Assembly (NCBI RefSeq): GCF_037975245.1
Contig: NC_092581.1
Location: 16,741,303-16,805,302 of the forward strand
Reading direction: 5' to 3'
DNA length: 64,000 bases
Source: Apostichopus japonicus
Taxonomy: Eukaryota; Echinodermata; Holothuroidea; Aspidochirotida; Stichopodidae
This document shows positions 8,211 through 63,388 of the stretch, piece by piece (position 1 is the first letter of the stretch; every line of letters starts with the position of its first letter). Position numbers and translations under genes: made by a program. A model generated the notes under the pieces. The model saw only the letters and a list, made by a program, of their open reading frames with translations, searched no databases and was not told the origin of the DNA.

Positions 8211-8214
8211 AAGT

Positions 8215-8560
8215 CCATTGAACATTTCAAGTAAACTTGTCATATAGTAAGTGTTTCTCAATGCTTGAAGGTCTATGCTAGGGGTATGTGTCGATTTTCT
8301 CACTGCTAAAATAGGTCTTTGCTAGGGGTATATATGTGTTGAGTTTCTCCCTGCTAGAATACTGTAGGTCTATACTAGAGGGATATGTCTGTTTTATTCA
8401 AAGTTAGAATATGTCTATACTAGGGGAATATGATTGTTTACTCACTAGAATAGGTCTTTACTTATGGTATATGTCTGTTTTCTCACAAGAATAGGTCTAT
8501 AAGAGTGATAAAGTCTGTTTTCTCACTAGAATAGGCTTATTTTGTGGGTGGTGCGTGCAT
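8215..8560. repeat. Degenerate ~45-60 bp tandem repeat
   Basis: Units containing AATAGGTCTATACTAGGGG and ATATGTCTGTTTTCTCACT recur about seven times with indels. It is a decayed minisatellite. Confidence 0.75.
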
Positions 8561-8569
8561 TACCACCCT

Positions 8570-10289: not shown

Positions 10290-11740
10290 TTCCAGACAAG
10301 GCCGGTTGGATAAGAAGTTGATCTTGAGGCCAAATTGAAGTTGAACTCAATCCAAGGGCTGCAAAAGTTTACAATTAAGGATGTACATACCTCCTCATGT
10401 AACAAAATGGAAATATTAATATTGCATGGGAAAATGAAAGATCAGAAAAATTCTTCATGTTCATCTGTTATAACATAACCTATACCCAAGGAACAATTAT
10501 GGTATATATGTAGGCCTTTTCCACTGTATTTCATGTAGAAAAAACACTCATAGAGTTACTGATATCTAGCACACCGAACGGTACTTGCTCGATGATTTCA
10601 CTAGAGTGTCATTGCCCCAACCAGCCAATAAACGAAAGAGATTTGATGCCAATTTATAGGTCTTCTCAAAATTACACCATAAGTTGTTCCATATGCCCTG
10701 CAGAGAGCCACGTTTCCATTCAAATCGTTTTCTTAACAAACATCGAGGCACAAACTGAAAAACAATATTACCAGGGAAGGAAATGAAAAAGGGATTTTTT
10801 AAAGAGGTGTTTATTTACCATTCTATTGTGGAACAGCTTTTTGGCCCCTAGTAAGACTCTATTTTCAAGGAGTCATTTACTTCTATAAACTAAGGTTAAC
10901 ATTATGAAGGTCAAAGCTCTTTTTTAGATCATTGCATTTTTATACAACATTCTTGTCCTAATAACTCAAAATATCAAAGTTGATGGAGTTATTTCAACTT
11001 TCAAGAACAGGATCCAGAGAGCTAACCTACAGAGGTTTCATCGAGATAAATTGAATGACACGCTCGGACATGAAACTTCCCAAACTTTCATCGGAGTGTT
11101 GTAATCTTATTTTGCTTGATTATCCTATTATGTACTCTCTATATCTGCTGCTATTTTTTGAAGGGGGGGTGGGGCAGGGGGTGTTGGAGGTAGAAAGTAG
11201 AGATGTTGTATTTAACAAAATATCTCAATGAAAGAGAATCCACAATTTCTCTGATTGAAATAAATCCTGGCAGTTCAAATTAATTCAATGAAACGTTGCA
11301 AGTTAATCCCTGAAAAGTACAGTTTCAATTAGTAAACACAGTGTCTATCACTCCTAAGGGAAATATTCCCTATTTCAGAGGGTAAAACCATTATTTCTTG
11401 CAATGGATCAATGTTGTTGACTAGCAATGCTTGTCAAAAGACAACCCAAAATGCCTCTGATGGATTGAAAATTCAGAGTGAAAAATTATAACAAACTATA
11501 AGAACTGGTAGTAAAGCTAGCTGCCTTCAATGCAAAGCAAACTATTCCCAAAACTCAAATCAGCAATTATTCCGCAGAGGCAGCCCCAACTAAAGGAAAC
11601 ATTATGGTTTGGGAAATGTTTGTTTACACTGAGATGGAAAAATTTAATTATGTTTGACATGAGATCTGGGAAAGACAAGATATCTTCTCTGCTACACATA
11701 TGTTAAGAATGAGGTGACCGTGTTGCTAGATACATTTCAG
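10290..11740. other. No gene recognised; unique AT-rich DNA
   Basis: Only short frames. A G-rich run (GGGGGGGTGGGGCAGGGGG) is near 11163-11181. Nothing else seen. Confidence 0.5.
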
Positions 11741-20757: not shown

Positions 20758-23700
20758 TCATTCAATTAAATGTCTGAAGAAAATGATGGATTTACTGTTA
20801 CTTTTAGAAAGTTCTGTTTCAGGAGGAAGATGTAGCATCCACTGGCTAGAGCCTCTGTGAGTAATATAGCCAATTTCCTTGTCTTGTGCAATGGTCTGTT
20901 TGTAATGTCTGGGCGTAATAAGTGTCATAAACTCACCCGATCCAGCCACGAATCCTTCCCGGAATGGTTGTATGCATAGGACTGGTGAGGCTGACACGTG
21001 GATGACTAGAGCAGCAGAACTGTAGACAAATATCAAAAGGGATGAAAGAATTTAAAAATAAACATGTCAATATATCAATCTAGGCAAGATGTGAATTAAT
21101 CCAGGAAAAAAAAATATAAAATAAGAAAAATCACACAGCCCTATAAAAGAAGGAATGAAAAAAAGAAAAAAAATGCAAATTAGACAGGGCTCTGGAGCGA
21201 AAAAAGTGCCGTAACAATTTACAATCACACTCCAAACACAGTACAGCTAATTTTCAGGAGATATTTGAGTGAAGAAATAAAGTATTGACTGCTCTCCAAA
21301 TTAATTATATCAAAGTTCCAATGCAGAGTGACTTTGACCATGTTCTGATAGCAATTACATTTTGCCTCATTGTAGGTGAGATTCCTGTCAACCCTTTGTT
21401 ATAACTGATACTAATTCCTCATGAGTTTGGCATGTTCACATACTAAGACATTATGGCCAATTTTATCCTAGCTTATAATGTTTATCATGCAATAGACAAT
21501 TTTTGTGTCATTTTTTGGTGTGTCTTTTGATACTGCATCACTATCCCCTAAGTTTGATGTTTGTAAATGTTTAAATAATGCAATCTACAGACATTTTAAT
21601 GTTCATATTTTTATATGTTTTGCCATTTTTCAGGGTCTTTTTTTACACCTACACAAATACTTCATCATAGCTGACATCACACACCTTGGATTCCTTAAAT
21701 CAACCAGACAAATACTGCCATCATATAATCAAGAAATAATTACAAGTCTTTGAGTTGAGAGCAGAATTATTTCCTTAAATCAACAAGATTAATACTGCCA
21801 TCATATAAACAAGAAATATTTACAAGTTCTTAACTTGAGAGCAGAATATTCAAAAGTAAGATTTTTAATGTTCATATCTTTACTCATTTTGTCATTTTTT
21901 TGGGTCATTATTTACACCTACACTGCTACTCCATCATAGCTGCCATCACGTACCTTGGATTCCTTAAATCAACCAGATGAATACTGCCATCCTGGTTACC
22001 TCCTACAACCTTCTGAGATGAAACAAACCCACAGCAGTTAAATGCAGATGATGTCTGAACTCTGAACACCTGCAAAAATAACAAAATCAGTCACAGGTGA
22101 AAGTCTCTTGCATTCAACTGAGAAAGTATGTCTCCCATGGAACATGTTCTCCCACCACCTCCACGCCCATTTGCAACCCCCACCTCAATACTTCAGGCTT
22201 TGTCTGTTGGGATTTATCTGCCTGCACCAGTCAAGAAAACAGCCTACTTTGAACAACTGCAAATTTACTTCGATTTATAATCTGTAAATTTAGTAAACCT
22301 CCATACTCAAAAATCTTCTTACAAATTCAATTTCTTGAAACTTTTCTTTCTAGAATTTTCAGTTCTTGCAGAAAAAAGAACTTGCTAAGATACCCCGAGA
22401 TAGATGCACATGCCAGGTTAATAGACTAGCACAGATTCTACATTTCGTCTGTCACAGGAAAGTTGGTTTGCCTTTATGTGTGCAATAACTCCAAAAAATA
22501 ACTCCAAAAACACCAAAGGCATCCAAATTATATTTTTCTCTCCTCTCCTATCACAGACTTACGGTCACCTTTTCATTTCAACAATCCTAAGAACCTGATA
22601 AACATCAAGGGCTGGAATCAACCTTGACAAGATTAGCACAAAGACAGGAGATTTCAAATAAGCCCATAGGATGCTGTGCTGTCTGTTACTCTGGTCTCAT
22701 GCGTGTGAGGTGAACAGACTGATCCCACTAAACAGCCTATTTCTTACTTTTTCTTTTGCTATTTTTGATGGGAGGTGGAAAGGACCGATAGTTTACCTCT
22801 TTGCGGCTACGTAGTCCCACACCTCTCAATGTTCCATCTTCGACAGCTAACAACAGTAATTTACCCTCTGTTCCAACTTCACGCTCACCTAGCAGCAGAA
22901 CGTAAATAAGATATATTTTATGAGTTGTCTAGATGAGAGCAAGAATTGAAATATTCAAAGTAAGTCTCAAACATTGGATATTGTTACATTCAATATCCCT
23001 GTCTTGCAATGAATGAAGACCAACCCCCATCCCATCCCACCGCTTCCCTCACTTACTTAAAACTACACCTTAGTACTTTTCCCAATTAAGTTGTTTTTAA
23101 GCAAGGAAGAATTTAAAAATGAGTAATGTCCACAAAAATTCCTAGAAGAGAGTGACTTTTCATTTAATTTCTATGAGAAAACATCAACTTTAGAACTGAC
23201 CCAGAATAGGCAACCTCGATTTGGCATGCATTAAACAACCCTGTTAAGTTGGTGGCAGTATGTAAAAACATGTACAAGCAAGAGGAAGCCTGAAACAAAA
23301 GAGCAAACTCAATGCTAAGAGTGTATGAACAACTGAACATTTTCACAGCTGCAATTCCTGCCAAGATGTCTTCAGCAATGACAGAAGCATGGACAATGGA
23401 ATATAACACTGATATAGAAAGTATATTACTGCTTTGTTTTCTTGTCATATACCTGCTGGTTTATCAGGAATGCCCAAGTTCACAGAGTTGTCCGAGACAC
23501 CAACAGAACAGCCATTTATGGGGGCACCGTCTCCTTTAAAGATAATCTCCAAACACTTCCCTTCGCCACAATCCCAGAGCCTTGCAGTGCCATCTCGTGA
23601 GCAGGATACTATGTTGCGCCCTCTGTCGATTACGTCCGTTCCGAGAATCCCTATCAGAAGGATTGAAAAAATGCTGGAAACTAAATAAGCTAATGGTACA

Positions 23701-26700
23701 TCATCAAACAAAAAGGGCAACATTTATCGCTCGCGGCTAGACGAACCCTAGAATCATCCACAAGGCAAGCCAGGTCCAGAGCCATGTAATGGCTGCAAAT
23801 ATACCATTAAAAGGTTGATAATTATTTAGTAGATGTTAGTATCTCACTCCATGGAGAGTTCTATTCAAAGCTGCATATATCTTAACTTTACATCTTGTGG
23901 AATCTTTATAACAGCTTTTCAAGAAGCGGGTAGATATGATTCGGGTTTTCTTGTCAATGAAGTAACCATCCTCCTGCATTACCAGAGGTCAATAGCAGGT
24001 CAAATGTTCTTCAAATTTTTAGCAGAGCATCCCAACTGACAAAGTTTGCAACACAAGGGCCCAGTCTTTAAATTGCTGAAAGTGTCAGTCACCCTCGACC
24101 TTTTGTATCTCCAGATCTGTGTAAGCTATACCAAAAGTGTCTTGTCTCATGTGATGACTGTGCATTTGTAGCTGTTTTGCCATCGGCTGATACGCCCTCT
24201 ATTTTCGGCCGAATCGTCACGAAAATGTTTTTTCCCGGAAGAGAGAAAAATCGTAGAAGAAACGTTTCCTTCATTTTAGTAGATATGTTTCTTTGGATTT
24301 ACTTACACTCGCTGACTTGCTAGCACTGAATTGGGTGAGTTCAATATTTATCTCTTTCGCTTCCTGGAAACATTCATTAAGACGACAAGTTTAACAGTAC
24401 AAACTTTACAGTCTCTTCTTTTAATTTTTTTCTTTCATTTTGTAGCTTTTCAACTACTCAGGTCTTTAGTTACCAATTTTTATCATATACTATTTATTGA
24501 GCTATTGTAATGTTTGACAGCAGCATATAGCTTTTGGTTTCTATAGCCTGACCTTATGGCAAAATTCCTCTTGACAGACTAAAGTAATTTCAGACACAAA
24601 TTCGGAGGCACTTTTACCTAATTTGGTGGATGAAGCACACATCTTCTCTTAAATGTCTCCAAGCATAGCTAGTGGAGAATGTAAAACAAAACGGAGTTGC
24701 CAGTTTCTGTGTGATGCAATCTGCCAAAATGGTAGCCAAACAGGGTAAAATAATGCCAGATATGAATTTTATGACAATTGACCCTGTTAATGTGTAGGAA
24801 TTCATTGCAATTGGGGGGTCCCTTAACTGAACATTAGAGAGTGAAATGTGGTAAAACATTGCCAATGTTTTCACCAACCCATAGCCCTACATGCATGTCT
24901 TGAGACGGATTGAACAGCATGTAATGGTTGAAATCAATGTTTTTGAAATCAAGGATTTTACCAATTCTCAGATAATATTTTCTGAAATTTTGTAGGCCTT
25001 CAACAAAATGCCAGAAAACACCAAAATGCTGTTGGGTTGTACCAGTTCATTTCCCTCCGGCCAAGGAAACTCGAAAAAAAAAATACAAATTTGTCATTGT
25101 TGGCATTATAAATGCCATACTGTCAACCCTGATGTGAAAGAAGAACGTTGCTCATCCAAAGAAATGTTGACTGACAAGTTAATTGCTGAACAAGGAATTA
25201 CTGACACCATTGACTGAGGCAATTTTGTAACAGGCTGTGCTAATGTGCAAGTGATACCCATATATAGCAAGCAGTGGTTGACAGATTCCTTACCAGATAT
25301 TTATAACATGCACTTTTGAACTGAAAATATTGCCAGTGGGTTGGAGAGAACTCTTTAATCACTAACTTCTATTTGTCCTCATTGATCTAGTAGGTAAACC
25401 TTTACATTGCTCAATTTGTCCTTAAAGGTAGTCAGTTAAGGCCCCAAACTATAGAACTCTATAATTGCTAGAAGTTTTCAAAAAGTATTTTTCCTGGAGG
25501 TCTTTACTCTCCAAATTGTGCTCAGACATTGTTAAGGAACACACAAGATGACTGAATGTCCCAGTGAGGAAAGTTTCCTCAATGGTTGTAATAAAACCAG
25601 TTTAAGAATTTTGACCAAGGTGACCATATTTGAACGTCTAGCATATTTTGGGCCAATACAGCATACCTTTAAGTTATTCTGTCTGGTTTGGTATTGTCGT
25701 TGTAACCAAAAATCTGTACATGAAAGGTTTGTGATAAAAAATGCTTTATATAACTTCCAGCTAAAATACCTTGCAAAATACCTGTTTCAAGTGTTACACT
25801 GTGCATAATAAAAGTACAAGCACAGCCGCAGTTTGAGATTCTGCAGCATTGAAACAGATCTAGCATAAATGATACTAGAGTAACATCATCACATCTTCTC
25901 ATATTTTGCATATTGAATTCAATTCAAACTGTAGTTCTGTTTGATAGAACTTATTTTCACTAAACATGTTTCAGTATTTAAAGGCATTTCTGATATTACA
26001 ATACCTCCTTCATGTCCTCTCATGGTCTGTGGGCAACTTCCATCCTCAACAGACCAGATTTTCAGCTGTGTATCTAACCCACCACTGAGAATCACCACAC
26101 CAGATGGGAAAAACTGGCAAGTATTGACATCACCAGCATGACCTTCCAATTTCCTCTGAAAAGGTAAATCCAAAGAAAAATACAAAGGTATTCAAAATAC
26201 CACATGGATAATAGAAATGATTTAATGTTGGTTTGTCTTGTTTTGTTTTCAAGGTAATATGAGGTTGGTATTGGTGATACTAAGACTTTTGCTACAATTT
26301 CTCCACCAAGTGAAGGTTAGTGAACAAGTAATTAGGAATTTGATTTGATTTTCTGCATTTTATCACCATAGAAATATTTCACCACATTAAAAGTGTAGAT
26401 TTGAAAACAAATCTAAAATTTGAATAATTTTTCCTATAATTTCCTTTCTGTAGTTGAAGAGAAACTTACTTTTCAAGCTAAAGACCTGCCTTTGTCAATT
26501 ATGAAGGCATGTTTGGTTCAAGCAGCATGGAAACATTCAGCAAAGCTACTTTCAGTCAAAGAAGTTCAAATGTTTTGCTGAAAAACAGAGGAGTTTCCTC
26601 ACCGATGTGGCCAAACATTTACCAGCTAAACAACAGCTTCAAACAACAGATGTTCAGAACAGGCGAGCGTATTGTGCAGATAGTCATAATTTATGATCAG

Positions 26701-29700
26701 CTTTCACTTGTTTTAACTAAAGTCTACTTCACATTTTTGCTTTTACAACCATATTTCCTACCATATACTTGAAGTATCTTATAAAACTAATTTTATACAG
26801 GTATAGATTAAGTTGTTGTTTGTTGTTTCGTTTATTTCTGCCATTAAAATCACAATGAAGTACATTTCTTAATACATAGTTATAGCAATGAGACAGTAGG
26901 ACTTTTTGAGTCTGGTCCCTTACAAAGTCAAACCAGAAAAAGAAATTTTATATAGAGAAAAGAAAACAAACACAATAAAACACATAGGAAACATACACAT
27001 AGGGGTTTCAAAGAACTGGGTAATAAAACAGCAGTGCAATGCTCATAACAAGGCAGAACTATACGAAAACTATTCGTTGAGTAGATAATGTTTCAGATGT
27101 CTTTAAGTGAGAACGAAAATTTTGAAGGAGTTGTCAGAATTGTTATAAATATGGGATTTTTAAAAAAAAAAAAAAAAAAATTTTTATAATAAATATGGGA
27201 AAAAATTGATTACTTGTCCTCATGGAGTTATGTTGAGAAAGAAAGATAGAGCTATGAAAATCTATACCCTTTATAGGCAAGACAGTTACAAGAAGACAAT
27301 GGTACTCAGTGTTGTGATATGTGTGCATGGTACTTACCCTGACTGTTCCATTGTTTGTCTGCCAGACTTGAAGAAGACCATCAGAACCAGCAGATACTCC
27401 TAATTCACCTCCAGGTGAAATGCTGAGGCTTTCAATCTAAGGAATTGAAAGGTGTTTAGATTGAAATATATAGCAAGGCCTTCAAATGCGAAATCGATTA
27501 TACTTCAAAACTTACAACCTGTGAAATCAAAAGGTGATCGAATTTAAAATAAGACAATGACAGATACAGAAGACATTCTACTTGTGTATAGTTTGCTGGG
27601 ATAATATATTGTTATAAGCTGTAACGATATACTAACAATGTAACCAATGTTCCTTACACCTGACTAGAGAATAGAGATGACTAGATTTACATATTCATAT
27701 CGATATAGAACAATGGAGACTTTAGCAATTAAGCAGACACCAACTTTGTTGCTTTAATGAAGCTAAAGGGGATATTTAACAACAATGAGTTTAGAAATGT
27801 CTGATATGAACTGGAAGTAACCTCAAACCACAGCACTATAATAAACTTCATACATAAACTCATAAACTTCATACATAAACTTCATAAACTCCATCTCAGC
27901 ATCATTAGGATATTATTACTGTATATTTAATCCTTACGTATATACTGTATTATATATATTTGTACATTTTTCTTTTCTTTTCTCACAGGGAGTTTCCTAC
28001 CTTGTAAAGTCTTTATAAGACTTTATAGGATACTTCCTTTCCCACTGTACACAATTGGCGATAAAACAAATAAATGAATATATAGTTGATGCAAAACAGA
28101 GGATTAGAGATATAATGTGATGAATAACTATTATAGGTAATACATGAATGTTACTAGGAAGTTAAAGCCTCATTATGCATTCCACTAAAACCAAAACCTA
28201 ATCAATCCTAAAACATGGTCCTTTATTGGTACTATTTATAGTAAATAAAACACAATCACAACAATGGAATTGCTTGCCAATATTCTGGCCCATTGCCAGA
28301 GATTGTGAGCATTGAAAAATTCGAACATAAACACTCTGTTCTGTGTTTGTAAACAAAAGTAGCAGTTGAAGCAAGATGCATGAGCAAATGTCATGACCTC
28401 CATAGGTAATATTGATATATATATCCTACACATTGTACATGTATTCAACAACTAGACTGGAGAATATTTGTTAAATGTGTCCTTTCAAACTGCTACTGTA
28501 CCAAACATTAGCTTAGAGAGAGAGAGAGAGACAGACAGCCATTACTTCATGGTGCTAGACATAGCTATTATATAAGATATGTACTTTAATCATAGAATAC
28601 TTCCATGCCGCAGGTATGAATGGGAGGGGTCAAAACATCTACCCAAGGATGTGCCTGATTAATGCTTTGGACTGTTATGTACACAAACACAGAATGTTTA
28701 TGTTTGATGTTGTCATTCACTTGTTCTCTGCAAATGAGACAAAGTTTAGGGGAGAAAAGTACATAAGGATTTTGTGATTATTTCCTACACAATAGTAACA
28801 AAAAGGAATGCTTAGACTGTCAAAGATTGAATCACAAATGAGGCTTTAAATATTGAGAGAACAAATCAAAATGCATATAGCAATCAAAATATTTTTTTAT
28901 TTAATAAATAAACTGTTATTAATATACATTACCAAACAATGTTACTTACACTTTTGCTATGGATGGAGCTAAGCGTAGCTGTTGGAGAAGTAAACTTTGT
29001 TTTCAAATCCTTGTCCTTAAAAGTTAACTCCAAGCTTTTCTGTAACAAAACAAAAAAAATGTCTGAAAGTAGTCTTCATAAATATGAAGTTCTCAAATTG
29101 TTTCCCAAACAGTCATGACCAGTCACAGCTTTCATTGACAATAATAAACTAATGAAAGAGGGTTCTGATATCTAGACAAAGAAGCAAGAATTACCACCAG
29201 AGTGCAACTGTGCATATAGCCTTTTCCTGGTTGGTTACTATGGAGCTACAGTATTCGTGGCTCAAAGGGTACAAATTCAAAGCTGTATTTAACAATCCAG
29301 TCCACTCATTTATTTAATTATGTGTGGAAATTAAGTGTAGGGATGCACCGGATCCAAATTTTTGGATCCGGCCGGAACTGGATTTTGCCGGATAGTACAT
29401 GAAATCCGGCCAGATAAAATCCAGCCGGAACCGGAATTTTTCATTACACAAAAGAAAATCATTAATAAGAAGTAGAAGTATGAAACAAGGAGTATTAGTT
29501 TGGTTGGTTTTTAGAAACAGTGGGTCAGACCATTGAGAAAATTAAATTAAATATGTTAAACCTAATTTTTCCTTACTTTGAATGTTTTTATTAATTTTTG
29601 GAAATAGTTTACTTTGATATAAGTTAATACCAACACCTTTTTAAGGAATAATTCAGGCCAGATTTTGAAAAAGATCCGGCCAGATTTTGAAAAATATCTG

Positions 29701-35673: not shown

Positions 35674-38600
35674 ATGGAGCTGAGAGGCTCCAATATAACT
35701 TCACACCTTTCTCTTAGAAGTGTAGAGGTAAGGAACTATTTCTCAAAGCATCTTTAAATAGGAGAGTCAATACTTTAGTAGAAAAACCCTATGGAACAGA
35801 TGGGGGAAGAAGCATTGGAACTTGGCAAAATGTCATTGGTTTGGGGCTAATATTTTATTTTGTAGCAATAAACTTTAATGAATCATAGAGTTGTTTAAAT
35901 GTGATACATTTGTGGAACTACAAATATTCGACAGTGCTGGATGAAACCCCATCTTTATTTTTACCAATTCTAGCTTGAAATGTAGTTGTTTTAAAAGATA
36001 ACCCTTTTGCCAGTTGACTTGATGTGAGGTTAATGTTTCATATCCCTCAGGATCCTCGTACAGTACAGTCTGAAGAATATTGTTAGTAATGTGGATAATG
36101 ATTATAAGGGTTTGGTAATGAATGTGTGGTAGCTACTCTTTCCTAAGAAATATTTCTATGATACTTCAGAAAGTCTCAAGAAGGTTTCTTGTAGGAGAAT
36201 GTAGCTAGCTCTCGAGTGTTGACATGATACAAGGGTTGTATAGTGAATATTCAGTGTCCCGCAGCAATGTTTGTATAATATTTCAGAAAGTTTCAAGATA
36301 CTGCAATGATTCCTTTGGCCTTTCTATAATGGTTTAGGTTGCTTTCAGCAATGTTTGTTAAGATTTACCCAAAAAATAACATCAGTATGTTTTGTTTCCC
36401 CATTTTAAACTTTCAGTACAGGAAACTCAGGAAGAAATTCCATAGAATAAATCATGTAAATGAGTCAATGATACATCGACTTGGTCTGGAGAAGGAATTA
36501 GAGGTACTGCTTGATTTCAAATCTGCTTTTACCATCATTTAAATATGAGAACAGAAAAAAAAATGTTTTGATTAAAAATGTTCAGGTTCAAATGAAAAGA
36601 TGTGCCATGTTGGCTGAGTAACATTACATTCTTTCAGAAGTCCAGGAGCAATTCTTAGTTTGATTCCTTCCCAAGGGTATTTAGTGTAATTCCTCTATGG
36701 TAAAGATATCCCAAAATTGACGATTGAATAAAGGTGAACAAATTGCTTATCTACAGCGAAAAGCCTGTGTATGCATCCTAAAGTTGAAGAAGATCCTGCT
36801 TGGATCAAAAACAGCAGGACATCTAATTAAGCAGAGAAATCAGCTGGCACTTAGCCAAGTCACACATTGTTATTGACATCTTCTTCAACTACTGCTATTA
36901 CTAATATTGCTGTGACAGTAATATTTTTATGCTCAGATAGTTAGCAGTGTAGGAACTGCAGGCTTTACACATTACAAAAAACACCATGAAAACATTGCAC
37001 AAGCCTTCCAAAAGCATTTGCAGCTAGGCAGGGCTTTGCTATTTGGTTGCTACAGTATAGTTGGCCAACTTTATAGTGTACTGAGCATTTGTCAACATTT
37101 TGAGAACTGTGAGAACCTAAAAATGTTGTTAAATTTGTCAGTGCTCTTAATTTTAATCTCCAACCCAGATACATGTGTCAATAAAATCCTCCTATTTTTC
37201 AGACTTATGGTTTGTATGCCACCTGTTAATAGTGCATCAGATATGATTATTAGTTGTAATTTCTAAATATTTTAATGTCAATTTTCTGTATCACTGTTTA
37301 TTTTCTGCATGTGGTATTTCAGACCCTTTCTATAGTACGATCTCACATATTTGAACAACTATGTTTCTACAAGTATGTTTCTACAAGTACGTTTCTACAA
37401 CTATGTTTCTACAACTATGTTTCTACAACTACGTTTCTACAACTACGTTTCTACAACTACGTTTCTACAACTACATTTCTACAACTACGTTTCTACAACT
37501 ATGTTTCTACTTTCACAGGGTCATCGCGGCTGTGTGAATTGTCTAGAATGGAATCATGATGGATCGTAAGTTTACCTCCATCTGTTGTAGATGGTAGATG
37601 AAGATATCATCCATTTTGCATTTTAGTTTCTGTTTTCTCATCACCCTAATTAATTTGTGCATACTTATGTTAGCCATAGCAAGCAATAGCAAATGTCTAA
37701 AACGACTTCAATATGGTTTATCGTTTTGCTCTGCTTTCACTGACAGTACACAAGTTTGTACAATGATTCCGTTCCATATGTTGTACTACCGCCTATGATT
37801 GAAATGAATCCGAGGAGATTAAGCCTAGGTCAAACCAGAATTGCTTTCATAAGAACAGAAGGTGGTAAAATTATATATATTTTTTGGTGAAATACAAGTT
37901 TGCCTTGAATTTTTTCAACCACAAGGTTTTGAGGCCAATATGCAACTTGTTGCTTTTTGCTATATACAAGAGGCTTGAGAATTCACAGATTGGGGTAATT
38001 ATACATCACTTGTCAATTCTAAAATACCACTCAAAGATGGCCTCTATCTAGCACCTCAAAGGTTACACTTTCACGTGTTTTACTTCTCAAACAGTCTGCT
38101 CGCCAGTGGATCTGATGACTTGCATGCAATCATATGGGACCCACAGAGACAGAAGCAGAAATGCACACTTCGAACCGGTCACCATGGCAACCTCTTTTCT
38201 GTCAAAGTGAGTATCATTTCTTTAATTCCATGTGTGTGGTGTCTGATTCGAGCTGGATCCAGTCGTAACTGTGTGAGACTTGAGGTGATAGTCTGTGGTC
38301 ATTCAAGGATAACCATATTGCGATAAAACTAATAATAAAGCATTTCGATTCTGCCTCATGAATTATTCAACGGTAATCCGATGCTTGCTAGCTTCTTACA
38401 TCTCGTAGTCTTTCATAATTTCTATCCTTGAGTTGTGTGACTTCCCAGTACAGTGTGTAAATGATAAGTAATGAGTTGGTTATACTCTTACCAGTATTAA
38501 CATCAATCATATGCTGCACTGATGTATTATTATGATACTTATCAATAGACTGTAGGAATCATGGCTTTATCAAACTGCCATCTTATGAATGTGTTCAATC

Positions 38601-41600
38601 ATTCAATTGTACAGTAGTATGATGTAAGAAAGTGTTTCTGCTGAAGAAAGAGGTATAGTCTAGGGAGGATGGTTTTACGATTTTACGGTCCTTGTATATA
38701 AATTAACAACAACGTCAAGAGAACGGTGCAAATTGTATATGAATCGTTCTCAGTTAAGTACATATTGTTTTCAATATTGCATTGTGATTATTTGAATAAA
38801 AATAAAACAAAACTGTTAACAAACTGCTTATCCACTAAAAAGCCTGTGAAAGAGAATGTGTAAAATGTTTCGATCCTTGCAGGATCTTCTTGAGAGGCTG
38901 AATGACAAGTAACAGAAACTACAAGGGACAAAATACAAGCACAGAATACAGATAGGTTAATGAGCAGGGTGAACAGGGTGTTATTATTTGTTAGGGAGTT
39001 GTACATAACCTTGCAATAGGATACTATGCATTCATCCCAGTGTGATTTAAAGGTGATATTGTGTACAGATATATGTTTAATAAATAGTTGGCACTGAAAG
39101 CAACAGGGAGTCAGGTTTTTAAGTGGGCTCTTGGAAAGATTTTTAAAGACTGCATTCCATAAATTGATTGCTAAGTTTTTATGCATGACAGCAAATCATT
39201 GGTGAAAATTAAAAAAGGAAGAAAACAGAGTGTGGATCGTTATGAGTGGGTTGGATTTGATAAACTGTTCAACAAAATAAGAAGATGATTTTGAGCTGAA
39301 TTTCATTTTTGAAGACATTCTCTTTGGTATCTAGTGTATTCACTACGTTCTTTCCTCAAGCTCTCGGTGATAACTAAAACTCTGTGAATAATTAAGCTTT
39401 TAACCTGTTTATTGTCATTTTGCTTTTCTTCTTTGTTAATCGCAGTTTTTACCAAATGCTAACGATACCTCGATTGTCACAGCAGCTGGGGATTGTAAAG
39501 TCCATGTTCATAATATCCCCAAACTAGAAACATCTGAGGTCTATAGCTGTCACGTGGGACGGGTCAAGAGGCTAGCCACTGCTCCCAACGTCCCTTACAT
39601 GTTCTGGTCAGCTGGAGAAGATGGAACTGTCAGGTAAGAGTATAGATCTACACAGTTGTCTGATATCAGGGTGGGGGTGGGGGGAGGGGGCAGGGGAGGG
39701 GGTACATATTCTGGTCAGCTGGAGAAGATGGAACAGTCAGGTAAGAGTATAGATCCACACAGTTGTCTGATATCAGGATGGAGGTGGGGGAGGGGGAAAG
39801 GGAGGGGGTACATATTCTGGTCAGCTGGAGAAGATGGAACAGTCAGGTAAGAGTATAGATCTACACAGTTGTATGTTATCAGAACGGAGGTGGGGGGGAG
39901 GGGGCAGGGGAGGGGGTATGTTCTGATCTGCTGGAGAAGATGGAACAGTCAGTTAAGAGTGTAGATCTACACAGTTGTCTGATATCAGGACGGAGGTGGG
40001 GGAGGGGGGCAGCGGAGGGGGGGGCAGGGGAGGGGGTATATGTTCTGGTCTGCTGGAGAAGACAGAACAGTCAGGTCAGAGTGTAGATCTACACAGTTGT
40101 CTGATATTAGGTCGGAGGTGGAGGGAGGGGGGCAGGGGAGGGGGTACATGTTCTGGTCTGCTGGAGAAGATGGAACAGTCAGGTTAGAGAGTAGATCTAC
40201 ACAGTTATCTGATATCAGGACGGAGGGGGGAACGGGGGGGGGTAAAGTAGAGATACCAAAGAGGTGAGAGAGAGGAGAGCAGCAACTGCGTTTATCAGCA
40301 GAAAACTAAATTGTGAAACAAACTACTTCTAAAAGGGAAATGAAGAAAAAGAATCTAAATGTTTTGTTACTTCACTATTCAGATCACCTTGATTGAAATA
40401 TTTCTACATCATTTATTGAGCTTGTGGAACTTTATTTGTTAAACTCAGATTGCCAGCATTCAAGGATGAGAAACACAGTCTGCCTTAAAGCATGATATAA
40501 TGGAAATGTCTCTACCGTTGTAATATTGCACATTTCCACGTTATTTCTACCATTGTAATGTATTCATCCTTTTTTTACCAGGCAATTTGACCTCAGGACT
40601 CCTCACAACTGTAACGATAAATGTAACAATGTAATTGTGAACCTGAATGCTTACATCGGGAGACATGCAGAGTGTAAATGTCTAGCAGTTAACCAATGCA
40701 GACCTGAACAATTGGCAGGTAAGAAACAGACTCAACTCTTTTTGTCTTTTAATTATGATTGTAATTACTTTGATTCTTTTTATTTACTTCGTTCCTTGCT
40801 TACCTGTCTCCCCACAACCTTAGCACCTCCTTCTACTGTGCCTAGAATGAACTGGTAGCCTTTTAACACTGTGCGCCCTCCATGACTTCTATATGCACAT
40901 TCCATTCTGCAGTGTGAGCCAGTGATCCTGTGAATTTAGTTTCATTTCTCTAAGTTTCAAATGATTGCACCATTTCATAAATGTATATATCATATTTTGT
41001 ATATATTTTGTATATTTGTATATATTTTGTATATTTATATTTTGTATATATTTATATTTGTATATATTTATATTTTGTATATATTTTGTATATATCATAC
41101 ATTTCATGTATCTATCATATTTTGTAAATATCACTTTTCAGTCGGTGCCAGTGATCCTTATGTCAGACTCTACGACCTGAGGATGTTGTCTCCGCATGAC
41201 GTTAGTTTTTCTCACCTTGAATGGCTGGGACATTCGTGGCACAGTCCCACGGCTGAACCAGACAGTTTGGGCAAGGTGCCCAGTAATTGTGTGCAATACT
41301 TTATAGCAGGTTAGTCTTTGTCTGTACTTGTAAGCTTCAGTGCTTGTAAATTATTGATAAATTACAGTTTAATGGTGCTTTTGCACTAGATATAGGAAAG
41401 GGGATCAGATCCCGATCTGATCAAACTTCAGTGCTTGTAAAGTATTGATAAATTACAGTTTATGGGTGCTTTCACACTAGATCTTGGACAGGGATTCTGA
41501 TCCCAATCTGATCAAATTTCAGTGCTTGTAAATTATTGATAAATTACAGTTTATGGGTGCTTTCACACTAGGTCTTGGACATGGGATTTGATTTGGATCT

Positions 41601-44600
41601 GATCCTCCTAGTGTGAAAGCTCTCACACTCAATATCTGATCCCAAGACCTCAATCCTCCTCTCGGAGATCCAGAGCTTAAGATCAGGATAACAAGTGTCA
41701 AAGCTCGATGGCTCACGCTGACTCAAGATCTCTGTGACCTTTGACTTCCTTTCCTGTTTATTGCCCAAGAATAGACAAAAGTTGACACCAAGGGTACATG
41801 CAACTATAACATGTGGAAACGCTGATGTGATTTGCTGTGTTCTTTGTAACTTCATGTTTACTGATCGCCTGCTCGCACTCTGACCTTCAGAGGATCCAGT
41901 GTGATTGTAATAAGAAAGTCAAGTGGCACGAAATATTTGTCATTTTGGACACTATATAAAGAGTGAAGGATCTAGCATATAATGCACACTATATGGTTGG
42001 GAGGGTTTTATTCTGTGTATCTCTCCATTCGTAAGCTAATCAGTTCCTTAGATAAGTTCAAAAGTTCAAACTCTCTTGAGAAAGACTTCAAATCATGCAG
42101 CAGTAAATTCAAATATTATACAATTAGTTAATACTATTAGAAGTGAATGTTCCACCCTTCCTGGTTACGAGGGCGAGGCCTGTTATGTCCCTTTTCGTCA
42201 ACCTTGCAGAAAGCAATAGTGGTCACTTTTCAGTCTGGGAAGTCCATTTTAGACCTAGTGACAATATGCTAAATGATTACCTGGGGGAAAAAAACCCAAA
42301 AGTATTGCGTTAACTTGGTAAAGGAGGTAAATCTTTCTTCTTTTTATCTTCTTTTTTTTCTCTACCCAGGCCATCTACCAGCTACAGAAACGAGTCGAAG
42401 AGGTTACAGAACGTTGGCTATTACTTATCTTACCTTTGGGCCTAAAGGGGATGAACTTTTAGTAAATATAGGCGGAGAACAAGTTTATTTATTTGATGTT
42501 AATAAAGCCAGACGTCCTAAGTTATACACACTTGGAGACTATGCATTACAACCGGGAACCAACGGTGTTCACAAGAAGGGTACGTATCCTAGCCTATAGT
42601 CTCGGTGTAGTCTCGTGTCTGATCAATATCCGGACAGCTTGAAGAATCACAGACTAGTGAATACTTGTAAACGATCATTGCATGCTATGCTTGTTACTGT
42701 TTAACAATTTCATATTGAATGAATTTCTTGAGAGCTCCCAATAAATTGCTTCCACTTCTTCCGTAAGAGATGGAAGAAAAAAGTGAACCTTTTGCCCCTC
42801 TGTGCCTGATTTTATTTTGACCGTTTTTCTTTGTTTTCAAACCTTCATTCATTTAGTATAAAGCATTATTAAAGCTAGTCTACAAACAACATTGTCAAAT
42901 GGTATTAAGCAATTCTTGACTTTCTTTGGATATCGTCAAATATTTTAATGTCTTAATTTCTCAACAGATGTCTCAGAACAAGTGGCTGGTGTACTCAGCT
43001 CAAATGGGACGACTAATGGAGTCAATCAACTCCATCTCCCTCACTCAAACGGGTTCCATAAAATGCCTTCCAGCGACCTGCCCGCCCCACCTATACCTAA
43101 ATCCGCACCAGTTAATAGGTATGTGCAACTTTTACCAAAACTAAGAATTACTTGGTATCATGTATGAAAAATAAGTGCAATTGTAACTTTTCATGTAGGT
43201 AATTAATGAATTAATATCGATGAATATTTATTACAACCTGGTTTTGAAATCTACATATCAGAGCTTTGAAAATTGTCTATAGTGTGTTTTTATTTTAATT
43301 AAGTGCAGCCTACAAGATCTGTTGTCTGTGTGCTGCTTCTACAAACATCATAGGGGCTGTATTATTATTTTGAAAGAATTCAGTAAATCACACAGGTCTG
43401 TGTACAGCTCTACAAGCATCATGCAGTCTGCTGCGAATGTGATTCATTTGTATTGGTCTGTTATGATGATGTCCATAAGTCTTCCAATATTCAAATGACT
43501 TAATTAGAGCTCTTCTTGTTCTACAATGGTGAATTTCTGATATCCAAGAATGTAGAGCCTCAGAATAATTTGAATAATTTAAGTTTCTGATCTCTGTTGA
43601 AAAGAATCTTTGTTTTTGTTTTGAAGTAATACCATTGTGTTGTTTGTAAGACAAACCAAGACGACGAGAAAAATTTGATGCATAAATTGTATACCATAGT
43701 CTGTAACTGTCTAATCTGTATTTAATAATCACCCCCACTCCTTTTGATCCTGACCCCCTCCCTGTCCCTTCTCGATGCCAACATGCAAGAATTCTTTGTG
43801 TCAAGTCTAGGTGGGTTTATTTGGTGTTTCGTTGCTTTTATTATGTTTTCATAACCCTCCTTTATATGTCTTTCATTCTGTCTTTCACCATCTTTGTCTT
43901 ATAATAAAATATTCCCCTAAAATCTCCTTGAATTATTGATTGAAGGAAAAAACATTGCTCTTTGCAGAAATAAACCTCTCCCTCTCAGAGCGGAATTCTT
44001 GAAACTCGAGGCCAACAAATTCTACTGCGATAGGAAAGATTTTACAGCAGCTATCCGCCTGTACAACCAAGCTATCTCGATAAGTCCACAGAGTGCGGTG
44101 TTGTATGGTAACCGAGCAGCGGCGTACATGAAGCGAAGATGGTATGTATTGTACAGAACTTCAATGGTCTGGCCGACAATGAGCAGTGTTACATAGGTCT
44201 TGCCTACAATGAGCAGTGTTACATAGGTCTGGCCTACAATGAGCAGTGTAACATAGGTCTTGCCTACAATGAGCAGTGTTACATAGGTCTGGCCTACAAT
44301 GAGCAGTGTAACATAGGTCTTGCCTACAATGAGCAGTGTTACATAGGTCTTGCCTACAATTAGCAGCGTTACATAGGTCTTGCCTACAATTAGCAATGTT
44401 ACATAGATCTTGCCTACAATTAGCAGTGTTACATAGGTCTTTTGCCTACAATGAGCACTGTTACATAGGTCTTGCCTACAATTAGCAGTGTTACATAGGT
44501 CTGGCCTACAATGTGCAGTGTTACATAGGTCTTGCCTACAATGAGCAGTGTTACATAGGTCTTGCCTACAAGTAGCAGTGTTACATAGGTCTTGCCTACA

Positions 44601-47600
44601 ATGAGCAGTGTTACATACGTCTTGCCTACAATGAGCAGTGTTACATAGGTCTTGCCTACAATGAGCAGTGTTACATAGGTCTGGCCTACAATGAGCAGTG
44701 TTACATAGGTCTTGCCTACACTTAGCAGTGTTACATAGGTCTTTTGCCTACAATGAGCATTGTTACATAGGTCTTGCCTACAATGAGCAGTGTTACATAG
44801 GTCTTGCCTACAATGAGCAGTGTTACATAGGTCTTGCCTACAATGAGCAGTGTTACGTAGGTCTTGCCTACAATGAGCAGTGTTACGTAGGTCTTGCCTA
44901 CCATGAGCAGTGTTACGTAGGTCTTGCCTACCATGAGCAGTGTTACGTAGGTCTTGCCTACAATGAGCAGTGTTACATAGGTCTCTTGCCTACAATGAGC
45001 AGTGTTACATAGGTCTCTTGCCTACAATGAGCAGTGTTACATAGGTCTTGCCTATAATGAGCAGTTTTACATAGGCCTCTTGCCTACAGTGAGCAGTGTT
45101 ACATAGGTCTTGCCTACAATGAGCAGTGTTACATAGGTCTCTTGCCTACAATTAGCAGTGTTACATAGGTCTTGCCTACAATGAGCAGTTTTACATAGGT
45201 CTCTTGCCTACAATGAGCAGTGTTACATAGGTCTTGCCTACAATGAGCAGTGTTACATAGGTCTTGCCTACAATGAGCAGTGTTACATAGGTCTGGCCTA
45301 CAATGAGCAGTGTTACATAAGTCTTGCCTACAATTAGCAGTGTTACATAGGTCTGGCCTACAAGGAGCAGTGTTACATAGGTCTTGCCTACAATTAGCAG
45401 TGTTACATAGGTCTGGCCTACAATGAGCAGTGTTACATAAGTCTTGCCTACAATGAGCAGTGTTACATAGGTCTGGCCTACAATGAGCAGTGTTACATAG
45501 GTCTTGCCTACAGTTAGCAGTGTGACATCGGTCTTGCCTACAATTAGCAGTGTGACATAGGTCTTTCCTACAATTAGCAGTGTGACATAGGTCTTGCCTA
45601 CAATTAGCAGTGTGACATAGGTCTTGCCTGCAATTAGCAGTGTTACATAGTTCTTGCCTACAATGAGCAGTGTTACATCGGTCCTGCCTACAATTAGCAG
45701 TGTGACATAGGTCTTGCCTACAATTAGCAGTGTTACATAGTTGATGCTTCTTCTGTTAAAGCTTAAAGGGGTTGTCTTTCAGACAGTTACTATTTTTTAA
45801 ATTCATAATATTTAATTTACTCTCACCTTTTCTATCCCTCTCCTTTCTTTTTGACTCCATTTACTAGTTACCTCCATTAGTAATTACCTCCATTCACTAA
45901 TTACCTCCCATTGTTTACAGCCCTCAGAGTTTATCTCCACAACCCTTCATCCTCTCATCACTCATCCCTTTCATCTTACCCATCCTTTGTTGTTTCTATT
46001 TATTACTCTGTCCGTTGCTCCAGTTTAACTGTCTGTCTATCTGTGTCTATTAAGGTGTTTTTAATTTCTTTTTGTTTCAGTAAGCCTTGGAATATAGACA
46101 TATATGTCATACTGTCATTAAGATTATTGTAGCCCCCAATATGGCAGCCATACAACTAAAACAAATACTGCACCTCAAATGTGATCTCCCCCTTTACTCC
46201 TGTAATAGTAGTTAGTAAGTTAGCAGTAGTAGTATTTATAGTTATATATATATAATAGTAGTTGTATAAGCGTAGTTGTATATAGTAGTTAATAGTAGTT
46301 AGTAAGTTAGCAGTAGTAGTATTTATAGTTATATATCCCAACTTTAGGTCATCAATCCATTAGGGATGTTGACTTCTATTGATTCATCAGCAACTGCCAT
46401 TAGTGTTTGCTTTGGCCCACTTTCAAGACTCCAGAAATAATATTTCCATGCCAACATGTCTAGCAAAGTTGACCTTTCCTCGTCCACCGTGACTTTGTAT
46501 TTCATCAGGACTAATTTCTTTAATCCCTCAGGGATGGTGACCTCTATGCATCCATAAGAGACTGCCATAGTGCACTTCAGCTAGATCCAGCCCACCGTAA
46601 GGCCCACTTCAGGTTGGCTCGGGGTCTCCTGGAGCTTGCCTGGATCAACGAAGCAAAGGTCTGCTTGAATCATTTTAAAGAGAAGTTTCCCGAGTATTCA
46701 GAGTACAGAGAATGCCGTATGTTAGACGGAGACATCAGAAGAGCTGTGTTCACAATGAAAGAATCTGGTAGGATATTTGAGAATTCTCCCTTCCATTTTC
46801 CCTTCTTGAGAATATTTTAAGATTCATCATTCCACCAGGAATAAATAAGCATCCAATAATATTTACATATTGAGCTGATTTCTTGAATTCTATTAAAGAA
46901 GATGTACTAAAATCAACCAATTAATCATAAAAAGAATTCCCACTTCGGAATTTGCAACCCCTCTAACCATCTCTCCCTCCCCTCCCCTCCCCTCTCTTTA
47001 TTCATCCCTATCCCCTTCCCCTCCCCTTCCCCCTGCCCTTCCCCCTGCCCTTTCCCCTGCCCTTCCCCTGCCCTTCCCCTCCCCTGCCCTTCCATTTCCC
47101 CTTCCCCCATGCCAACAACATCATGTATATGTCAGTGAACTCAGAGATTGTCTATGACTGATCAGATGCGTCATCAAAGTGACATCAAGATGCCTTTCGA
47201 AGTGAAATTCAGAATTAGCTGCAGACATTTATGGTTGTTATACCTTGAAATATGTTACACTTATTCAGAATTCATTAACCAAGTGGAGCTATGTTTTGTC
47301 ATTACTGTTATTTTTGTAATGTTGTATTAATTGTTTTGAGAACAATTAGTCAATTTGTAGGCTGACTTACTATTTTTTTTCTTTTTAATATTTATTTATA
47401 GCAATAAAATAACAAATTCTCTTATGATTCTTGTGCACACTGCAAGGTAGGTCTAGAATCACATTAAATGTCAGAGTATTTGTAGGCCAAAGCTAGACCG
47501 TTCTAATGTTTTAACATTTCACGTGGCATCACAACACAAGCTCGTCACACCTTTTGTTCTCTATGGTATTATTTAAATAGTTTCAGAAGACAAAATATTG

Positions 47601-49089: not shown

Positions 49090-50217
49090 CAGGATCGAGT
49101 GGGCTATATTGCTGTAGTATGTTACATGATCATAGCCTATATAGTATCGAGTGGGCTTTATTGCTGTAGTATGTTACATGATCATAGCCTATATAGTATC
49201 GAGTGGGCTTTATTGCTGTAGTATGTTACATGATCATAGCCTATATAGTATCGAGTGGGCTTTATTGCTGTAGTATGTTACATGATCATAGCCTATATAG
49301 TATCGAGTGGGCTTTATTGCTGTAGTATGTTACATGATCATAGCATATATAGTATCGAGAGGGCTTTACTGCTTTAGTATGTCACATGATCATAGCATAT
49401 ATAGTATGCTGTAGTATGTCACATGATCATAGCATATATAGTATCGAGTGGGCTTTAATGCTGTAGTATGTTACATGATCATAGCATATATAGTATGGAG
49501 TGGGCTTTATTGCTGTAGTATGTTACATGATCATAGCATATGTAGTATCGAGTGGGCTTTAATGCTATAGTATGTTACATGATCATAGCATATGTAGTAT
49601 CGAGTGGGCTTTAATGCTATAGTATGTTACATGATCATAGCATATATAGTATCGAGTGGGCTTTATTGCTGTAGTATGTTACATGATCATAGCATATATA
49701 GTATCGAGTGGGCTTTATTACTGTAATATGTTACATGATCATAGCATATATAGTATCGAGTGGGCTTTATTGCTGTAGCATGTTACATGATCATAGCATA
49801 TATAGTATCGAGTGGGCTTTATTGCTGTAGCATGTTACATGATAATAGCATATATAGTATCGAGTGGGCTTTATTGCTGTAGCATGTTACATGATAATAG
49901 CATATATAGTATCGAGTGGGCTTTATTGCTGTAGTATGTTACATGATCATAGCATATGTAGTATCGAGTGGGCTTTAATGCTATAGTATGTTACATGATC
50001 ATAGCATATTTAGTATCGAGTGGGCTTTATTGCTGTAGTATGTTACATGATCATAGCATATATAGTATCGAGTGGGCTTTATTACTGTAATATGTTACAT
50101 GATCATAGCATATATAGTATCGAGTGGGCTTTATTGCTGTAGCATGTTACATGATAATAGCATATATAGTATCGAGTGGGCTTTATTGCTGTAGTGTGTT
50201 ACATGATCATAGCATAT
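49090..50217 (+). repeat. 52-bp minisatellite in the presumed WDTC1 3' UTR
   Basis: About 21 units contain TATCGAGTGGGCTTTATTGC, TGTAGTATGTTACATGATCA and TAGCATATATAG; the array begins about ten bases past the WDTC1 TAG. ATGATCAT within each unit is self-complementary. Early units read AGCCTATATAG and later ones AGCATATATAG, with a block of ATGATAATAG variants appearing twice. One unit near 49360-49410 is shortened. Confidence 0.96.
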
Positions 50218-61505: not shown

Positions 61506-63388
61506 TTACAGTGCGTACCCAACTTGCTGATAACTCCTGAGGGGTGGCGCACTGACATATGATGCATTGCCACGTGATCTGTCTAACAGGGAACTGTTTT
61601 CCTCCGAAAAGAAAGTCAAGTCTTTTTGGCTCGTACACGATCCTGTTACAGATAAAACGTTCGACAAACCGTTTTTCCAAAATGTTGATGCAGACACGGT
61701 ATTTTTACTCAAATCTGTAAAATGTCTCGTATCGCTAGACTCTTCAATAGTCGTTTTTTCATTGCTTGTTTCTTTCCTTAAAGGAGATGTCCTTGTACTC
61801 GACTTGACCTGTGTATCTTTGACGTGTCGATATGCAGACGCTGGTGATGACGTCACCAAGCTTCCATGGGAACCATTCGATAGTTGCGCTTGCTGAGTTG
61901 TCTTTAAGGAATTGACACTCCTGGATTCTAATGCACAAGATTTGCGGACGGGAATGCTCTCATGATCTGTCGGCGCTGAAGGTGTAATTGAAGTTTCGCG
62001 CCGTCTGACAGAAGAATCCAGCGCATGCGTGGTAGACGATGTTCCAAGTGGATCGAGATAGGAGTAGTGCTGATGTTGAAGAGAGTCGATGGAATACCCT
62101 GGATGAAAAGACGACGATTCTCCTGCCTTATCACATGCTCTCGGCACGTAGGAAAGATAATCACCGGTAGCGTATAGTTTCTCATTTGCATAATGCCTAC
62201 CATACGCAAGACTCTCATTCACGTAGTGGCCGTTATACGCTAACGCATTACCGTACGAATAGGCACTGTTAGTATAGGCTCCGTTAGGATACATGCTGTG
62301 CTGCCGATCGTGTCCGTAGCTTATAGAACACATAGCATTGTATCGATCTAGCGCCTCTTGATATGAGGCCGCGGGTAGGGCAACCTCATATGGGGAATAA
62401 TGACTGAAAGTTGTGCGTGACTGGTCATATTCTGCCGCGTAAGAATCGCTATACAACATGGCGTCACTCGGTACTGAGTAAGGAGTATACTTGCTCTTTT
62501 TAGATTTACTTTTGCTCTTCATAGGACGTGATTTTTCTTGCATACTAGCGTAGGCTGACTCCGTCTTAGCCTGAAGCTGATCGATCTGAAGGAGCATGTC
62601 TTTCTCTTCAATTTTGCTGCAAAGAGGGACAAAAAATGCGAAAGGAAAAAAGTTCGTTAGTAATCAGGAAAAGCTTAAATTAAGCACGTACACAATTCTT
62701 TCATATTACCGTATTTGATATCCTTCAATAGTTGATGGCAAATCTTCATATTGATATGCCTTAATGCGTAGATGAGCTATGAGGCAATATAGAAAATCAG
62801 GCACAATAACATAAAACAGAGTTATACTAAACGATATTTGTCGAAATCTGTTTCCCCGTCTGGTTTTGTCTTCAGTTTTGTGTTTAACGTAATTATTTGT
62901 GAATAAAACGAACGCAGGAGACTCAAGTAATTAAAACGACATCTATGAATACTACATGAGTGTTGAATGTGGTTTTCATTTTTCAAGCCAAATGTAAGTA
63001 TAGAACTGAAATATGATAATTGACATTTGTGAAAACACATGGAGGGCGTTAGTCATTTACATTTGGCAATTACTTGTGTTGTACATGACAATATTAATGC
63101 CATCATTTAAAAGTTGACTAAGGCAAGCGACACACTTATATTAGATTTACATTTCATGTTTATGAATAAAGCAACAATTGAGTGACAACGTCTACATTAA
63201 CAAATCTGAAGTTGTTACCATATGTAGTCAAAGAACATACCTCAGTACTGTATTAACACTAACGATGCAATGAGGGCGCGATGATCGACTATTGTGGACA
63301 ATTGTTGCTGCGCTCTGCATCCAGATCCAGCCGCCATGTTTAGACAAAAACCGATAGTATCTTGTGGTAACCTGGCCTTTCATTAACA
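61506..63388 (-). CDS. SIM: Single-minded bHLH-PAS transcription factor, 3' part of the gene (two exons)
   Basis: SIM proteins are bHLH-PAS transcription factors that dimerise with ARNT and act in midline and neuroendocrine development (family knowledge). Exon complement(63241-63388) has acceptor TTTACAG and donor AG|GTATGT. It encodes the end of [25 protein letters not shown], then [19 protein letters not shown], a stretch distinctive of SIM1/SIM2 and unlike NPAS1/3 or trachealess. It joins in phase (AG|C) to exon complement(61506-62616), giving [16 protein letters not shown], comparable to human VLTDTEYKGLQLSLDQ. The last exon carries a basic Ser/Lys nuclear-localisation-like run ([15 protein letters not shown]), a Tyr/His/Asn-rich middle, a Ser/Thr-rich region and the ending QQVGYAL then TAA. 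A possible donor (GG|GTACGC) lies within the last codons, so a further exon is not excluded. The bHLH and PAS-A exons lie beyond 64000. SIM1 versus SIM2 cannot be assigned; invertebrates usually have one gene. Confidence 0.92.
62617..63240 (-). other. SIM intron between the PAS-B/PAC exon and the last recognised exon
   Basis: Donor AG|GTATGT after 63241 and acceptor TTTGCAG before 62616. AT-rich, no repeats noticed. Confidence 0.85.

Follow-up and report, generated by a model that had tools for sequence, protein, structure and literature searches.

How is a single splice donor chosen when the end of the exon, the donor and the beginning of the intron are repeated several times in a row, and when some of the copies are identical to the authentic site? 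This question is raised by a locus in the window, that is, the whole stretch of 64,000 nt of Apostichopus japonicus DNA that was analyzed here. At this locus, the initial annotation had described six tandem copies of an exon end of about 39 bases together with its donor and a G-rich part of the intron, and both TRF and the splitting of the array into units at a shared motif agree with this description.

The affected gene is located on the + strand. Its 13 placed coding exons have GT-AG borders and form a single open frame, running from 36417 up to a stop codon at 49080. The exon with the start codon was not found, so that the number 5 given to the intron in the initial annotation is not confirmed. 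The protein has Pfam matches to WD40 and TPR, its best relative with a solved structure is DCAF8, and we take the gene to be WDTC1, a name that reflects our reading of the WD40 plus TPR layout. The intron that harbors the array is 948 nt long (39634-40581), and the array fills its first 607 nt. A single donor (39633) joined to the acceptor of 40582 suffices for the conserved reading frame, and no second intron is required. The units, their donors and the flanking exons are listed in Table 1. Elsewhere in the window, WD40-repeat exons of a neighboring gene, presumably PAAF1, are found on the minus strand at 23448-27436 (Pfam WD40 in two of the three ORFs tested), and a 385-residue open frame with no Pfam match is present near the window end, also on the minus strand (61509-62663).

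Table 1. Positions in the window of the repeated units and of the two exons joined across them (a slash in a splice-site motif marks the exon-intron border).
Feature	Position	Strand	Basis
Fourth placed coding exon of WDTC1 (of 13), length 188 nt, donor in phase 2	39446..39633	+	spliced frame, GT-AG borders, WD40 matches
Unit 1: end of the authentic exon (39 nt) with donor CAG/GTAAGAGT following 39633, then intron start with G-rich tail	39595..39701	+	
Unit 2: exact copy of the authentic donor as decoy, following 39740	39702..39807	+	
Unit 3: exact copy of the authentic donor as decoy, following 39846	39808..39913	+	
Unit 4: donor lost, CAG/TTAAGA at 39952	39914..40035	+	
Unit 5: weakened donor, CAG/GTCAGA at 40074	40036..40143	+	
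Unit 6, truncated: weakened donor, CAG/GTTAGA at 40182	40144..40240	+	
Five strict G-quadruplex motifs, one per spacer of units 1-5	39669..40144; starts 39669, 39786, 39892, 39998, 40123	+	pattern, RNA fold
Next WDTC1 exon, acceptor cag/GCAAT, partner of the authentic donor	40582..40718	+	spliced reading frame

Several further tandem repeats lie along the same gene. A 14-bp minisatellite (unit ACAACTACGTTTCT, about 11 copies, 37355-37510) stops 8 nt upstream of a WDTC1 exon and thus sits in the region of the polypyrimidine tract of that acceptor. An AT-rich array (40982-41131) stops 10 nt short of the exon at 41142, and a second array begins at 41335, 25 nt past the donor of that exon. Fifty-two copies of a 30-bp unit (44166-45740) begin 24 nt after a WDTC1 donor and occupy most of the intron, and a 52-bp minisatellite array (49094-50217) starts 13 nt past the WDTC1 stop codon, likely in the 3' UTR. 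At 46349-46420, 168 nt upstream of the WDTC1 exon at 46532, there is a degenerate copy of the acceptor and the start of that exon. This copy, a match to the acceptor at 46531 that lies outside the 190 introns surveyed below, has 4 mismatches in the junction 20-mer and has kept the AG; judging from the sequence, it is possibly an old acceptor duplication.

The array at the donor has a TRF period of 106 with 5.9 copies and 82% matches (39596-40238, score 801), and the lengths of units 1 to 6 are 107, 106, 106, 122, 108 and about 97 nt. In each unit, the final 39 nt of the exon (39595-39633 in unit 1) are followed by the donor and roughly 68 nt of intron. Five further occurrences of the 20-base donor junction, each with 1-4 mismatches, are present within the same intron. 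Within a 74-nt core, units 1-3 show 3-5 pairwise differences, and units 4-6 each have 7-10 differences from every other unit. Because units 1-3 differ least, the exon-proximal end of the array looks the youngest or the most homogenized. All five decoy units have ACA where the exon reads ACT, a silent difference. The GT is kept in four of the five decoys and two match the authentic site exactly, in line with the previous assignment of decoys 1 and 2 as intact, 3 as lost, and 4 and 5 as weakened (units 2-6). The "up to five decoy donors" of that annotation break down into two identical sites, two weaker ones and one dead one.

A single locus of the assembly (671.6 Mb, 35 contigs) was found to contain the array; the window belongs to contig C21. 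Two other contigs of this assembly carry mitochondrial genes. Contig C29 contains a nearly full COX1 over four ordered matches (about 14.7-16.1 kb) and a second partial copy at about 30.8-31.2 kb, which represent either nuclear mitochondrial DNA or a remnant of the mitochondrial assembly. On the mitochondrial contig C35, which has 16,099 bases and starts at COX1, the order read by eye is COX1, ND4L, COX2, ATP6, COX3, ND3, ND4, ND5, then ND6 on the other strand, CYTB, and finally ND1 and ND2 on the COX1 strand. Sea urchins and sea cucumbers have this order, sea stars do not, and the mitochondrial genes of flatworms all lie on one strand. Translation with table 9, the code of echinoderms and flatworms, gave the usual COX1 residues, such as the asparagine of STNHKDIG, which becomes lysine with tables 5, 13 and 24. 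Code and gene order thus indicate an echinoderm and speak against amphioxus as the host.

What could distinguish the authentic donor from its copies? Its strength does not. The U1 duplex value was -11.0 at 39633, 39740 and 39846, compared with -4.3, -7.1 and -7.1 at 39952, 40074 and 40182, respectively. A weight matrix derived from 196 donors of this genome gave 11.6 for all three identical donors, which puts the authentic site at the 93rd percentile. Since U1 pairing is equal at three sites, position must decide the choice of the donor. Further fair GT sites in this intron are GAG/GTGAGAGA at 40263 (U1 -9.7) and three G-rich GAG/GTGGGG sites (-9.4). When the exon frame is extended past the authentic donor, the first in-frame stop is reached at intron +2 (AGG/TAA), exactly as the initial annotation had pointed out, and use of a downstream donor would indeed result in a premature stop in WDTC1. 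With decoys of equal strength and a stop downstream, the locus is also, as had been proposed, a natural test of the choice among identical donors.

In amphioxus, tandem duplications of exon-intron boundaries have been termed mirages (PMC3087553, excerpts). We consider it likely, with a probability of roughly 0.8, that the WDTC1 array is a near-neutral boundary duplication of this type, in which the exon-adjacent donor is used and the decoys are passive. A segment reaching from 39 nt inside the exon to the G-rich stretch of the intron would have undergone a head-to-tail duplication followed by amplification; the resulting six units are seen directly, while the course of the duplication events is our reconstruction. 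The G runs at the unit borders may have helped the duplication of the DNA. The extra copies would be wholly intronic, the first donor at 39633 would be spliced to 40582, and the decoys would leave with the intron. Use of the first donor is suggested by coding continuity, because any downstream donor would include the stop at intron +2. Two decoys still being identical and three being mutated, the decoys would be mostly passive and drifting. The simplest reason for the preference would be exon definition, in which the upstream acceptor is paired, over the length of the 188-nt exon, with the donor closest to it; a co-transcriptional first-come choice, or enhancers in the full exon, may act instead.

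Several other origins and functions were considered and rejected. A whole-exon duplication is not indicated, as by eye there is no polypyrimidine tract with an acceptor ahead of the exon-like part of a unit. The array is also not a dispersed repeat: in a search of the assembly that skips simple repeats, the only matches to 286 array bases were the array itself and, on contig C20, 33 nt of the G-rich tail. Recursive splicing at CAG/GTAAG was discarded because the bases ahead of each CAG are, by eye, purine-rich and do not form an acceptor. That three of the five decoys are mutated (two weakened, one lost) could also be explained by selection to kill them, but the expected excess of donor mutations was absent: the donor hexamers of the decoys carried no significant excess (3 of 30 positions versus 21 of 340 elsewhere, p 0.31).

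The frequency of such arrays was assessed in 17 other genes that had been picked before their introns were seen, namely, VCP, CLTC, EEF2, eight CCT subunits (including TCP1), SERCA, HSP90, ATP5B, RACK1, GRP94 and ATP1A, with 190 introns in total. The sample is small, consists of highly conserved genes only, and the guide proteins were written out by hand. The exon models were made with a small spliced aligner, which recovered 24 of 24 inner WDTC1 borders when given WDTC1's own translation; in the survey, they are predictions from the genomic sequence. Some genes were covered in part (e.g., SERCA, whose coverage began near residue 262), and additional loci of the CCT family and of EF2-like type were left out. 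Doubtful or short terminal exons were dropped before counting (CCT3 179-247 and 14153-14173; CCT2 2-107 and 11324-11333), and a minimum exon length of 20 nt removed two SERCA exons (7 and 8 nt). A junction was counted as copied when its 20 bases (12 + 8) recurred with at most 4 mismatches within its own intron.

By this rule, donor junctions were copied in 5 of 172 introns of 16 genes and in none of the 18 introns of ATP1A, that is, in 5 of 190: CLTC intron 14, CCT8 introns 10 and 11, SERCA intron 9 and HSP90 intron 9. The WDTC1 array is thus not unique. Acceptor junctions were copied in 4 of 190 introns: CLTC intron 11, ATP1A introns 14 and 15, and VCP intron 7. On sequence grounds, the first three look real and the VCP match is probably due to chance, since it has 4 mismatches, is 739 nt away and lacks the AG. 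In two controls, in which junctions were compared with unrelated introns, 0 of 368 and 1 of 606 pairs matched. Against the latter value, the five own-intron recurrences in WDTC1 confirm that the exon-like parts of its array exceed chance similarity. Altogether, five donors and three acceptors were judged to have real copies, which corresponds to 8 of 190 introns or about 1 in 25.

Decoys in these introns were counted in a looser search allowing 7 mismatches. Intron 10 of CCT8 has 7 decoys, all AAG/GTATCA like its weak authentic site, and intron 11 has ten GAG/GTATGT decoys plus an eleventh, GAT/GTATGT. These two adjacent introns each open with an array of their own exon end and donor (region 8064-9069 and 9384-9925). 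CLTC intron 14 has 11 CAG/GTTAGA decoys in an array that includes just 8 nt of the exon, and SERCA intron 9 has two decoys that share the authentic nine donor bases. The single HSP90 decoy in intron 9, CAG/GTGAGT, is predicted to be stronger than the authentic CAG/GTTAGT (weight matrix 11.6 versus 10.0; U1 -13.6 versus -9.6). In five of the six introns, including that of WDTC1, the exon frame stops between intron +2 and +40, ahead of the first decoy. The exception is CLTC intron 14 with its stop at +242. Three earlier decoys shift the frame there, but the one at +117 would extend the open frame by 39 codons and bring in no stop. Because this decoy stays in frame, the coding argument is weaker for CLTC.

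At acceptors, ATP1A intron 15 has six decoys upstream of the real site, all with the AG (reverse complement, about 21490-22110), CLTC intron 11 has two, and ATP1A intron 14 has a single decoy that has lost its AG. Use of any of the nine would shift the frame. Coding continuity thus favors the exon-adjacent copy, i.e., the first donor and the last acceptor. As far as the coding need can tell, this is the prediction of exon definition and the opposite of a choice of the shortest intron. The recurrence at other introns, at donors as well as acceptors, suggests that arrays of this kind arise freely in the genome and cost little.

The cost can also be judged from the placement of the arrays. TRF arrays straddled 6 donors and 2 acceptors of the 190 introns, whereas about 5.1 straddlers per edge type (4.8 with periods of at least 20) would be expected if arrays were uniformly distributed and tolerated, an expectation that is crude and a tolerance argument that is based on 8 straddling arrays. 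Three of the six donor straddlers overlap the exon by only 8 nt (CLTC) or 9 and 2 nt (both TCP1). The two TCP1 straddlers are missed by the junction rule, and SERCA passes that rule without being a TRF straddler. Donor-straddling arrays are thus not visibly depleted (6 versus about 5.1), which argues for a small cost; for acceptors (2 versus 5.1), the numbers are small and there may be room for some selection. Considering all arrays in the 17 genes, 20 of 73 lay within 45 bp of an exon edge, compared with 12.2 expected (p 0.009), and this enrichment is due to the 8 straddlers.

Two alternatives assign the array an active role in splicing. The decoys might be functional, in that partial use of the downstream sites would lead, via the premature stop, to nonsense-mediated decay and lowered WDTC1, with the array length as a dial. 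The stop at +2, which any downstream donor would include, and the two intact decoys are compatible with such a role. Moreover, VNTR alleles of human CBS are linked with CBS activity. The excerpts of PMC2630376 provide a precedent in kind, with CBS alleles of 16-21 exon/donor units. However, three WDTC1 units have degraded decoys, the arrays in CCT8, CLTC and HSP90 belong to housekeeping genes, for which a shared regulatory use is unlikely, and amphioxus mirages reportedly yield normal mRNA, as far as excerpts of PMC3087553 and PMC3902484 go. We regard functional decoys as quite improbable. The other alternative starts from the G-rich spacers, which, as hnRNP H/F sites or RNA G-quadruplexes, might be what lets the first donor prevail or what hides the decoys. 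It fits with the G-quadruplex motifs in units 1-5, with the large drop in the predicted RNA fold energy of the array (from -168.6 to -357.9 kcal/mol when a G-quadruplex term is included), and with spacers in SERCA and HSP90 that are G-rich as well. Yet the spacers are AT-rich in CCT8 introns 10 and 11, which have 7 and 10 intact decoys, and C-rich in CLTC intron 14, which has 11. Hence, G-rich spacers, which the initial annotation had considered as a possible help, cannot in general account for the success of the first donor. Furthermore, the decoys are followed by G runs just like the first copy, which is therefore not singled out, and we consider a decisive role of the spacers unlikely.

The remaining alternatives concern the origin and the reality of the array. 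A mechanism such as transcription-linked breaks might draw arrays to exon edges beyond what tolerance explains. Indeed, of the 9 intronic arrays in WDTC1, 6 are no more than 45 bp away from an exon edge, compared with 1.7 expected (p about 0.0008), a test that is post hoc and covers a single gene. For the wholly intronic arrays in the 17 other genes, no such pull was detected (12 of 65 within 45 bp versus 9.8 expected, p 0.25). We thus doubt that edge attraction is at work, and the near-edge cluster in WDTC1, noticed post hoc, is a local curiosity. Finally, tandem repeats are a usual place of misassembly, and the array could be an assembly artefact. Nevertheless, no two units are alike (they differ at 3-10 positions of the 74-nt core) and several independent loci have the same architecture, and this explanation is very nearly negligible. 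The near-neutral boundary duplication with use of the exon-adjacent donor is thus the reading that we prefer for WDTC1.

How far this reading can be extended is less certain. As a tentative generalization, to which we give somewhat less than even odds, arrays at splice boundaries are common and nearly neutral in this genome, affecting about 1 in 25 introns with up to about 11 intact decoys, and the exon-adjacent copy is nearly always used, at donors as well as at acceptors. If this is true, natural introns would show on a genome-wide scale that exon definition prevails over splice sites of equal or better strength, and the arrays would be a large standing reserve from which new exons and introns could arise. 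The choice among identical splice sites is usually studied with engineered minigenes. Here, nature itself offers introns with between 1 and 11 intact decoy donors, including the HSP90 decoy that is predicted to be stronger than the real site. Should RNA reveal clean exon-proximal use, position across the exon would be the deciding cue. In addition, the mirage phenomenon is carried from amphioxus to an echinoderm, and its rough frequency bears on the evolution of introns and exons.

The WDTC1 array shares with mirages a boundary-spanning unit, tandem copies and a splice signal in many copies. Its 106-nt unit is slightly above the usual 100-bp limit of minisatellites. In the excerpts of PMC3087553 and PMC3902484, amphioxus mirages are reported for Adh3, troponin C, the globins BflGb6 and BflGb9, and PGBD5; the latter was added in PMC3902484, which cites Adh and troponin C. 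As described there, they involve donors or acceptors, have units of tens to about 160 bp, and keep the AG/GT in many copies. Thus, they resemble the WDTC1 array in being minisatellite-like boundary duplications in which the splice signal has been retained in many of the copies, though not in every one. They differ in phylum and gene. In WDTC1, normal mRNA is suggested by the reading frame; for amphioxus, the Adh3 data and RT-PCR suggested that regular splicing is undisturbed by mirages (PMC3087553, excerpts).

The WDTC1 unit, an exon end with its donor, is built in the same way as that of the 31-bp VNTR of human CBS, c.1444_1467+7(16_21), in which the exon end and the first intron bases are repeated in tandem (PMC2630376, excerpts). 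There, too, every unit carries the exon/intron border, but the unit is shorter (31 bp), it is present in 16-21 copies, and it is a known polymorphism. A second CBS variant, 844ins68, is a 68-bp duplication of an intron/exon junction with two like splice sites, of which the distal one is strongly favored. In contrast to WDTC1, it affects the intron 7/exon 8 junction and consists of one duplicate only. Its sites are termed donors in the excerpts of PMC2630376, whereas the title of the cited study (Romano 2002) refers to 3' splice site selection.

According to excerpts of PMC3087553, mirages were proposed to be linked to intron gain, and their proposed fate follows the tandem-duplication model of Rogers (1989), in which an AG/GT segment is duplicated. 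No intron gain by AG/GT duplication was found in WDTC1, where the frame uses one donor and one acceptor; the copies are inside an existing intron and no new intron has arisen. Echinoderm mirages were not found in the open-licence literature searched. Taken together, the WDTC1 array is of a known kind, the mirage, and what is new are its echinoderm members and a rough estimate of their frequency.
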